A stretch of DNA of 64,000 nt from Methylophaga sp. (lineage in GTDB: Bacteria; Pseudomonadota; Gammaproteobacteria; Nitrosococcales; Methylophagaceae), in contig NVWQ02000066.1 in NCBI GenBank assembly GCA_002733715.2, forward strand, positions 1 to 64,000. Reading direction: 5' to 3'. The notes beneath the pieces were generated by a model. The model was not told the DNA's origin and did no database searches. It saw nothing but the letters and a program-made list of their open reading frames with translations. Shown in pieces: positions 33,849-61,724 of this stretch; position 1 is the first letter of the stretch; every line of letters starts with the position of its first letter. Both the position numbers and the translations under genes were made by a program.

Positions 33849-33867
33849 TTATTACTAACTGTCCACC

Positions 33868-33920
33868 CCTAGAATTAGGGTATATTACTCTAAACCCTTA
33901 CGTTGTATAATTATCGTAAG
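33868..33920. promoter_or_regulatory. two palindromes, possible operators/promoter
   Basis: CCCTAGAATTAGGG (33868-33881) is a near-perfect palindrome, and CTTACG-N12-CGTAAG (33897-33920) surrounds TATAAT. Both lie upstream of the riboswitch. They look like regulator-binding sites, the second overlapping a -10-like hexamer, but no partner is known. Confidence 0.4.
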
Positions 33921-34005
33921 TTTGATTTAAGGAGCATAGTGCGATCTTTTCTGACTAGTACCAAAGTACAATAGTTATTAGTTTTGATTTGCTATATTCT
34001 TAAAC

Positions 34006-34043: not shown

Positions 34044-34129
34044 AATCTTATTGTCATAGGTATTTTATATGATAGTAATTGCTATAAATCGGAAAGATTG
34101 TTTTATAGTATTTTTTTAAAATTTAGTTA

Positions 34130-34203
34130 AAAAGCCAAACCTGTTGTGAAGCAGGGGCGGAAAGTTTCAGGTCTTAGGTTTTTTGTAAGATGGCTGGGCT
34201 GCA
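34130..34203 (+). ncRNA. candidate cyclic-di-GMP-I (GEMM) riboswitch
   Basis: The pattern follows the GEMM-I aptamer closely. P1 is AGCC (34133-34136) with GGCT (34197-34200), then CAAACC. A six-pair hairpin CCTGTT/AGCAGG is closed by the GNRA tetraloop GTGA (34146-34149). The core GGCGGAAAG (34156-34164) corresponds to GACGCAAAG, followed by a receptor-like TTTCAGG. A second hairpin TCTTA/TAAGA leads to TGGCTGGGCT, matching the GG(U)AGCCGGGUU closing strand. It ends 46 bp before the ATG of the VPLPA-CTERM gene, so c-di-GMP probably controls that gene. A promoter with TTGCTA and TATAGT (34079-34109) could drive it. The direction of control is not evident. Confidence 0.75.
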
Positions 34204-34249
34204 TTACTTAAGTTTTTTTGTTTTTTTATATTCTAAAAGGAATATTATT

Positions 34250-34867
34250 ATGAAAAAAGTAATGCTATTTATAGTGAGTGCAGTATTTTCTGTAACCGCT
34301 AACGCAGCGAGTTTTGATTTTGCAGCGATTGCAAATATGGGCGAGTATGGCGCTCCTTCCATTGGTTTTACAGATGGTGGAATTACCGTAACAGCTACGG
34401 CTCCAGGCGCGAATGCATATTTGGATGCAGGAAACGCGGGTTTAGGTGTATGTCAAGTACTTGGTGGCACTGGTGGTGATCAATGTGTCCCTGGAAATGA
34501 TGATAATATTGAATCTGGTGAAAATTTAGTATTGACATTTAATGGTGAAATTGAACTAACTGAGTTTAGTTTTGTAAATGGTGCTCATCAATTAGATTTT
34601 ACAGATGGATTCTTTTCATTATTTATTGATGGTATCGCAGCGTTTACAAATGAAGCACTGGCAAATGGTGTGTTTGGTGTGTTTACGGGCTCTTGGATAG
34701 GAACTGAATTCAGTTTTGTAAATACAAGTGCTGATGAAAATAATACTGCACAGCAATTTTACCTCAGCGGTGTTACAGCAGTGCCAGTACCAGCGGCATT
34801 GTTCTTGTTTGCACCAGCTCTATTAGGTTTCATGGGTTTACGTCGTAAAGCTAAATTAGCGGCATAA
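34250..34867 (+). CDS. VPLPA-CTERM sorting-signal surface protein
   Basis: A 205-residue exported protein: signal peptide to about 20 (KKVMLFIVSAVFSVTANAAS), a beta-rich body resembling other PEP-CTERM family proteins, and a C-terminal sorting tail made of VPVPAALF, a hydrophobic helix (LFAPALLGFMG) and the basic end RRKAKLAA. Exosortase XrtD (60198-61724) recognises VPLPA tails, so this is its likely substrate. A further in-frame ATG at 34190 is inside the riboswitch and has no ribosome-binding site; ATG 34250 has AAAGGAA. A terminator follows. Confidence 0.9.
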   Translation: MKKVMLFIVSAVFSVTANAASFDFAAIANMGEYGAPSIGFTDGGITVTATAPGANAYLDAGNAGLGVCQVLGGTGGDQCVPGNDDNIESGENLVLTFNGEIELTEFSFVNGAHQLDFTDGFFSLFIDGIAAFTNEALANGVFGVFTGSWIGTEFSFVNTSADENNTAQQFYLSGVTAVPVPAALFLFAPALLGFMGLRRKAKLAA

Positions 34868-34903: not shown

Positions 34904-34931
34904 GAAAAGGGGAGCTTCGGCTCCCTTTTTT
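34904..34931 (+). terminator. Rho-independent terminator with UUCG loop
   Basis: GGGAGC (34910-34915) pairs with GCTCCC (34920-34925) around a TTCG tetraloop and is followed by six T's. It ends the VPLPA-CTERM transcript, so the export genes downstream need another promoter or read-through. Confidence 0.93.
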
Positions 34932-60197: not shown

Positions 60198-61724
60198 TTG
60201 CTAAGTGTAAAACAAACAGTTTTCTTTTCCATCGCACTTTTATTGGCGGTGGTCGCATATTGGAATGGTTTAGCTGATGCTGTTTTCCGTTGGGGTAATC
60301 AGGAAGAATATAGTCACGGGTTTCTAATTCCTCTGGTTTCATTGTATATTTTGTGGGAAAAGAAAGCGCAAATACAAGCAGCGATGGGGCCACCATTATG
60401 GTCAGGTCTTTTTATTATTTTGGTTGCGATTGCTATCTTTATAGTGGGTGAAATAAGTGCGTTATTTCTCTTAATTCAATATTCATTTGTGATGGTGCTA
60501 TTAGGCCTTTCTATGGTCACAATAGGCAGAGCAACAAAATATACAGCAGCGCCTATTCTATTATTGCTTTTTGCTATTCCACTACCTTATGTGATCGAGG
60601 TGTTGTTAACGGCCAAGTTACAGCTTATTTCTTCTGAGTTGGGCGTTGCTTTTATTCGTCTTTTCCAGATCCCCGTTTTTTTAGAAGGTAACGTGATTGA
60701 TCTGGGTGTTTATCAGTTACAGGTTGTTGAGGCATGTAGTGGTCTGAGATATTTATTTCCGTTAATGAGTTTAGGCTTTATTGTTGCCTATTTCTATCAA
60801 GTATCATTCTGGAAGCGTGCTATTGTCTTTTTAGCGACGATTCCCGTAACGATTTTAATGAACAGCTTTAGGATTGGTGCGATTGGGGTGTTGGTAGATA
60901 ACTGGGGCATATCGATGGCCGAAGGTTTTTTACATGACTTTGAAGGCTGGATTATTTTTATGGCCTGCGCCGTAATTCTGTTTTTATTAATCTGGATAAT
61001 GGAGAAGTTGACTAATAAAAATGGTTCATTAGCGGCTGTTTTTGGTGTGGTCGATGTGGTTGAACCTGCCAAGGGTGAACAATATTCATCTGATAATAGA
61101 ATAAATAAGCCGCTATTATTGACGATTATCATGCTTGTTTCGGTGTTAGTGATGACTCAAGTTATTGATAAGCGAGTGGAGAAGATACCGGGACATGTAT
61201 CATTTGTTAATTTCCCTTTGACATTAAATAGTTGGCGTGGGCAGCACGATACACTAGATAAAGATGTGGTGACTAAGCTGGGGATGACAGACTATTTATT
61301 GGCTAATTATAGTAATGGCAAACAACCTCCTGTGAATTTTTATGTTGCCTATTATGAGTCGCAGAGAAAAGGGCTCTCTCCGCATTCGCCTCGTGTATGT
61401 ATACCGGGTGGAGGCTGGGAAATTTCAGTATTTGAGCGGATTGTAGTCGATGGTTATCCTGTTAACAGGTCGGTTATTAAAAAAGGTGAACAAACCCAGT
61501 TGGTTTATTACTGGTTTCAAGAACGTGGCAGAATCATTGCTAATGAATATATTAAAAAATGGTATTTATTCTTAGATGCATTATTTGAGAATAGAACCGA
61601 TGGCAGCTTAATTCGAGTAGTAACAAATGTTGCACCGAATGAAACATTGGACGAAGCTGATGCGCGCATATTAGATTTTATGGCGATAGCTAAACCCGAA
61701 TTAAAACAGTATCTTTTGGATTAA
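60198..61724 (+). CDS. xrtD: VPLPA-CTERM-specific exosortase XrtD with EpsI domain
   Basis: A membrane transpeptidase-like protein-sorting enzyme of 508 residues, starting at TTG after CAGGAG. About eight helices carry the exosortase triad: C180 (VVEACSGLRYLFPL), R225 (MNSFRIGAIGVLV) and H246 (LHDFEGWIIFMAC). The N-terminal EYSHGFLIPLVSLYILWEK is also characteristic. Residues about 300-508 form the EpsI domain (KGLSPHSPRVCIPGGGWEIS). XrtD recognises VPLPA tails such as the one encoded at 34250-34867. It should cut the tail and possibly attach the protein to a surface glycan. Confidence 0.93.
   Translation: MLSVKQTVFFSIALLLAVVAYWNGLADAVFRWGNQEEYSHGFLIPLVSLYILWEKKAQIQAAMGPPLWSGLFIILVAIAIFIVGEISALFLLIQYSFVMVLLGLSMVTIGRATKYTAAPILLLLFAIPLPYVIEVLLTAKLQLISSELGVAFIRLFQIPVFLEGNVIDLGVYQLQVVEACSGLRYLFPLMSLGFIVAYFYQVSFWKRAIVFLATIPVTILMNSFRIGAIGVLVDNWGISMAEGFLHDFEGWIIFMACAVILFLLIWIMEKLTNKNGSLAAVFGVVDVVEPAKGEQYSSDNRINKPLLLTIIMLVSVLVMTQVIDKRVEKIPGHVSFVNFPLTLNSWRGQHDTLDKDVVTKLGMTDYLLANYSNGKQPPVNFYVAYYESQRKGLSPHSPRVCIPGGGWEISVFERIVVDGYPVNRSVIKKGEQTQLVYYWFQERGRIIANEYIKKWYLFLDALFENRTDGSLIRVVTNVAPNETLDEADARILDFMAIAKPELKQYLLD

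Follow-up and report, generated by a model that had tools for sequence, protein, structure and literature searches.

A Probable Translational c-di-GMP-I Riboswitch before an Exosortase-Type Surface Protein Gene of Methylophaga and an Apparent Family-Wide Set of Such Switches

In the 64,000-nucleotide stretch of Methylophaga DNA analyzed here (the window), a c-di-GMP-I riboswitch aptamer lies shortly before the gene of a secreted protein with an exosortase-type sorting tail, and the strand at the end of this aptamer shows conserved pairing with the start region of the gene. The reading we prefer, at a probability of about 0.6, is that the riboswitch controls translation of this exosortase-sorted protein as an ON switch and belongs to a family-wide set that serves such cargo. 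The first-pass annotation had covered this one gene; the evidence shows that the set extends across the Methylophaga family, a group of marine methanol-eating bacteria.

Results

When the whole window was scanned with cmscan, RF01051 (c-di-GMP-I) was the sole riboswitch family above its gathering score, with a match that spanned the full model (positions 1 to 87 of 87) and exceeded the gathering score of 35 bits by a wide margin (Table 1). The first-pass annotation had placed the element in the GEMM-I class by its layout and had proposed a covariance check, which bears out the assignment. The layout itself was recovered as well, evident by a six-pair P2 stem, CCTGTT/AGCAGG, enclosing a GTGA (GNRA) loop, followed by the GGCGGAAAG core, the P3 hairpin as the second hairpin, and the closing TGGCTGGGCT strand. 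The aptamer does stand shortly before the gene, with a slightly smaller gap than the 46 bp initially given: 43 nt separate the end of the RF01051 model from the ATG at position 34250.

According to the Rfam alignment, with the numbering of PMC3764141 and PMC4744006, the window aptamer has G20, A47, and C92, the residues that contact the ligand in Vc2 (PMC4744006, PMC3764141), and the positions of the interhelical C44-G83 pair are kept. At the base of P2, C21-G46 is found in place of G21-C46, i.e., pairing is preserved with the identity of the bases exchanged. Given 23 GGDEF-domain matches in the genome, production of c-di-GMP is plausible, and this dinucleotide is the probable ligand of what appears, by class, to be a genuine c-di-GMP-I riboswitch. 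A search for the P1 helix, which is not part of the RF01051 model, returned no P1 that beat swapped partners and no conserved P1 competing with the start-region hairpin, the latter a point against the reading we prefer. In a promoter scan, the region directly 5′ of the aptamer contained no good sigma-70 site, and to name TATAGT at 34104-34109 as the promoter element of this switch would be only a guess.

The gene behind the aptamer encodes a 205-aa protein with a signal-peptide-like N terminus (MKKVMLFIVSAVFSVTANA) and the extreme C-terminal end AVPVPAALFLFAPALLGFMGLRRKAKLAA. Its tail, AVPVPAALFLFAPALLGFMGLRRKA, consists of VPVPAA, a helix, and RRK, as the first-pass annotation had described, and has the VPxPA motif, hydrophobic helix, and basic end of sorting tails; it also matches a profile built from the tails of switch-linked genes of the genus, which includes near-identical tails. 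The accompanying name, VPLPA-CTERM protein, did not stand in its formal sense. TIGR03370, the general VPLPA-CTERM model, gave 14.1 bits for the 205-aa protein, under a cut-off of 25.35 bits that no tail in the genome reached, and for this reason we refer to the protein as exosortase-type rather than as a formal VPLPA-CTERM member. Relatives of the protein were found in Methylophaga assemblies and gammaproteobacterial metagenome-assembled genomes. A terminator-like hairpin and then a wza-like export gene follow on the 3′ side. The exosortase XrtD, which would process the 205-aa product, is encoded in the same polysaccharide locus, as had been claimed, at a measured distance of 25 kb downstream of the switch-linked gene rather than 26 kb. 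Because the terminator-like hairpin separates the sorted-protein gene from the wza-like gene, and because the expression platform is translational in appearance, control of this protein apart from the polysaccharide enzymes is plausible.

Table 1. Coordinates of the features in the window
Feature	Position	Strand	Evidence
Inverted repeat ACCCCTAGAATTAGGGTATA, possible regulator site	33865..33884	.	CCCC-N-GGGG type
TAGTACCAAAGTACAATA, possible regulator site common to sorted-protein genes	33956..33973	+	Genome and genus motif counts
c-di-GMP-I riboswitch aptamer (RF01051)	34124..34206	+	55.3 bits vs gathering score 35, E 4.4e-08
P2 hairpin with GTGA (GNRA) loop	34140..34155	+	Sequence and Rfam alignment
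GCATTACTT, strand just 3′ of the aptamer core with the C92 equivalent; 5′ half of the proposed anti-start helix	34201..34209	+	
Probable ribosome-binding site AAAAGGA	34235..34241	+	Sequence, 9 nt before ATG
Secreted protein with exosortase-type sorting tail, 205 aa	34250..34867	+	Translation; tail profile E 5.9e-15
AAGTAATGC, codons 3-6; 3′ half of the proposed anti-start helix	34257..34265	+	9/9 pairs with 34201-34209
Sorting tail AVPVPAALFLFAPALLGFMGLRRKA	34778..34852	+	Tail profile
Terminator-like hairpin behind the sorted-protein gene	34904..34931	+	12 pairs, then T run
Exosortase XrtD with EpsI domain	60198..61724	+	TIGR04152 553.9 bits, cut-off 400

Apparently, c-di-GMP-I switches form a near-exclusive regulon for exosortase-sorted cargo in the Methylophaga family. 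All seven RF01051 matches in the 2.83-Mb genome precede genes with VPxPA-helix-RRK tails, and 13 tails of this type were counted in the genome, seven with a switch. Across the genus, 71 matches were found in 18 genomes; 62 of them precede an intact sorted-protein gene, two a degenerate one, and seven none. Among the matches listed for sister genera, 82 of 91 precede sorting tails by pattern, and all 91 sampled were assigned to sorted-protein genes, four of these by homology (three MINKQRQ genes and L178). The other pattern-negative cases comprise three with the tail further downstream (two of the five MINKQRQ genes and the MQTQSL gene) and two, L166 and L124, in which the sequence ends inside the tail, L124 having a complete, near-identical copy. 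Related sequences in these family counts are not independent.

Elsewhere in the phylum, none of the 61 canonical-type matches of the phylum and order sample precedes a sorting tail, many of the downstream genes being incomplete in the sequence examined. One phylum control, L188, was rejected as a sorted-protein gene, as it has a match to the tail pattern only and not a sorting tail. Outside the family, PEP-CTERM-like tails follow two of the nine C21-type matches (L211 and L242). Within the family, XrtD and the switch are found together in 27 genomes, the switch only in eight, XrtD only in two, and neither in 20 (Fisher p 4e-7, for genomes that share descent and are in some cases incomplete).

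The same aptamer subtype recurs throughout the family, with C21-G46 instead of G21-C46 in 160 of 162 members, G20 in all 162, C92 in 155, and A47 in nearly all; canonical G21-C46 is the majority form among matches outside the family. We take C21-G46 to mark a subtype since G21-C46 is not a stated family requirement. The two canonical copies within the family, L018 and L027 (G007 and G009), lie upstream of a longer secreted-type protein of another kind, which shows no sorting tail in the portion read.

A helix between the strand just 3′ of the aptamer core and codons 3-6 is conserved at the start region. In a set of 52 genes like that of the window, with an MKKxM start and from 23 genomes, this helix had a mean of 8.71 out of 9 pairs, with the next best register at 5.98, and compensatory changes were observed: G-C at pair 1 gives way to A-U, while G-C, G-U, A-U, and U-A are all found at pair 6. 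At other switch-linked genes, the post-aptamer strand has the ribosome-binding site as its partner, with better pairing than in swapped combinations (p 2e-4); of the 25 strong cases, 24 include the C92 equivalent in this helix. The median distance from aptamer to ATG was 19 nt. A terminator scan of the window found none between the aptamer and the ATG. Translational control is favored by this pairing of the post-aptamer strand with the start region, together with the absence of such a terminator.

We propose that, when the ligand is absent, nucleotides 34201-34209, including the C that would pair with c-di-GMP, pair with codons 3-6, and that the resulting helix shuts the ribosome-binding site and the start codon into a hairpin. 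When c-di-GMP is bound, the same nucleotides would belong to the aptamer, the hairpin would be weakened, and more protein would be translated. The ON direction is favored because C92 cannot both bind the ligand and close the hairpin. We put at roughly even odds the broader proposal that, throughout the family, the cargo of one exosortase system is served almost exclusively by the C21-G46 subtype as a translational ON switch, in which C92 and its neighbors pair with either the ribosome-binding site or codons 3-6.

The same riboswitch and regulon could also operate in the opposite direction, with the ligand-bound aptamer stacking on and stabilizing the start hairpin, or acting kinetically, such that c-di-GMP represses. 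Vc2 itself turns translation OFF (PMC9262584), and structure prediction shows that a folded aptamer is compatible with most of the start-region helix; when the aptamer was forced in Vienna folding, access to the ribosome site went from 0.50 to 0.53, no clear gain, and the calculation did not decide between ON and OFF. However, an OFF switch would need the C92 equivalent to bind the ligand and close the helix simultaneously, and the 5′ flank, which also bears on this alternative, paired with the ribosome-binding site no better than swapped partners did. Repression is a serious but rather unlikely alternative to the ON switch.

Considerably less probable is that the exchanged pair alters ligand preference and that another cyclic dinucleotide, e.g., cGAMP, is the natural ligand. 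The near-uniform C21-G46 of the family would fit this idea, as the affinity and selectivity of the aptamer can shift when single positions in lower P2 are changed (PMC9262584), yet G20, which is A in the cGAMP-binding G20A form, is invariant in the family, and A47 and C92 are kept as counted above. Lastly, the 55.3 bits of the window aptamer compared to 75-84 bits for canonical copies in other taxa might point to a degenerate or nonfunctional relic, a reading that we consider very improbable, however, given that the pocket residues, the GNRA loop, and the gene association are conserved across the genomes of the family. The ON switch for c-di-GMP remains the reading we prefer.

Further upstream, two motifs may constitute a second layer of control. 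The segment TAGTACNNNRGTACARTA, located at 33956-33973, occurs at eight sites in the genome with at most one mismatch, seven of them beside sorted-protein genes: five before switch-linked genes and two beside switch-less ones, the eighth site being inside an unrelated gene. In the genus, this motif lies within 400 nt of 35 of 58 switch-linked genes (at most two mismatches), with 0 of 58 for the reversed pattern, and by simple pattern it is rarer in sister genera. The CCCC-N-GGGG repeat was found at most 300 nt upstream of 17 of the 58 genes and downstream of none, with 0.53 expected from shuffles. That both motifs are conserved and that some stand at switch-less sorted-protein genes suggests a putative transcription factor regulon.

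Several individual loci are described here in their own right. At L030 (G018:C16:340831), the switch precedes a sorted-protein gene that has decayed, and the search of this genome yielded no XrtD, a state that would fit ongoing loss of the system. The switch and upstream motif at L036 (G002:C17:150850) stand before an open reading frame of ~53 aa, membrane-protein-like and without a sorting tail. At L250 and L254 (G053 and G036), a switch-linked sorted protein of 1125 aa is followed by genes for a LuxR-type response regulator and an apparent hybrid sensor kinase, which together are candidates for a regulator pair. Four c-di-GMP-I aptamers, L016 (G013:C7:213941), L025 (G011:C8:1961), L035 (G025:C16:41925), and L098 (G018:C18:303593), have no gene behind them; each has a terminator-like hairpin within about 10 nt on its 3′ side and most have a promoter-like TTGACC just 5′. 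Possibly these are small RNAs that bind c-di-GMP and stand by themselves. Their neighbors are presumably a DUF808-like gene or a convergent ahpF-like gene.

Discussion

The window aptamer resembles Vc2 of Vibrio cholerae (c-di-GMP-I/GEMM-I, RF01051) in its three-way junction, P2 GNRA loop, and P3, with G20, A47, C92, C44, and G83 shared and the model matched in full length. Unlike Vc2, it has C21-G46, no conserved P1 helix was found, the segment that follows C92 is the pairing partner of the start region, and its direction is probably ON, whereas Vc2 is OFF (PMC9262584).

c-di-GMP riboswitches before VPLPA- and PEP-CTERM genes were reported in 2025 for Methylophaga nitratireducenticrescens GP59 (PMC12530212); the single feature is thus already known. 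Ribo4-Ribo7 of that strain, most of which had higher RNA levels in reactor biofilm, are like the switch described here in aptamer class, VPLPA-CTERM/PEP-CTERM genes, and polysaccharide locus (PMC12530212). That study gives the switch-flanking genes and transcript levels, with three of the seven switches assigned to other genes, and is without a dedicated regulon, the swapped pair, or an expression platform. The C-terminal sorting tail, the exosortase, and the linkage to polysaccharide genes are features of PEP-CTERM/exosortase sorting (Haft 2006, PMC1569441; PMC9850573). The PEP-CTERM gene of PMC9850573 depends on RpoN for transcription, whereas an RNA switch and a different upstream motif are found here. 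Our search of the open-licence literature turned up no description of the near-exclusive regulon, of the C21-G46 subtype, or of the platform at the start region, and the regulon and its platform appear to be new.

The swapped pocket pair bears on how much variation the c-di-GMP-I aptamer class tolerates. To our knowledge, few regulatory inputs to exosortase cargo have been described. If true, the switch-per-cargo layout would tie much of the sorted surface proteome to c-di-GMP at the level of translation, apart from polysaccharide synthesis, in bacteria of a kind that dominates some denitrifying biofilm reactors.
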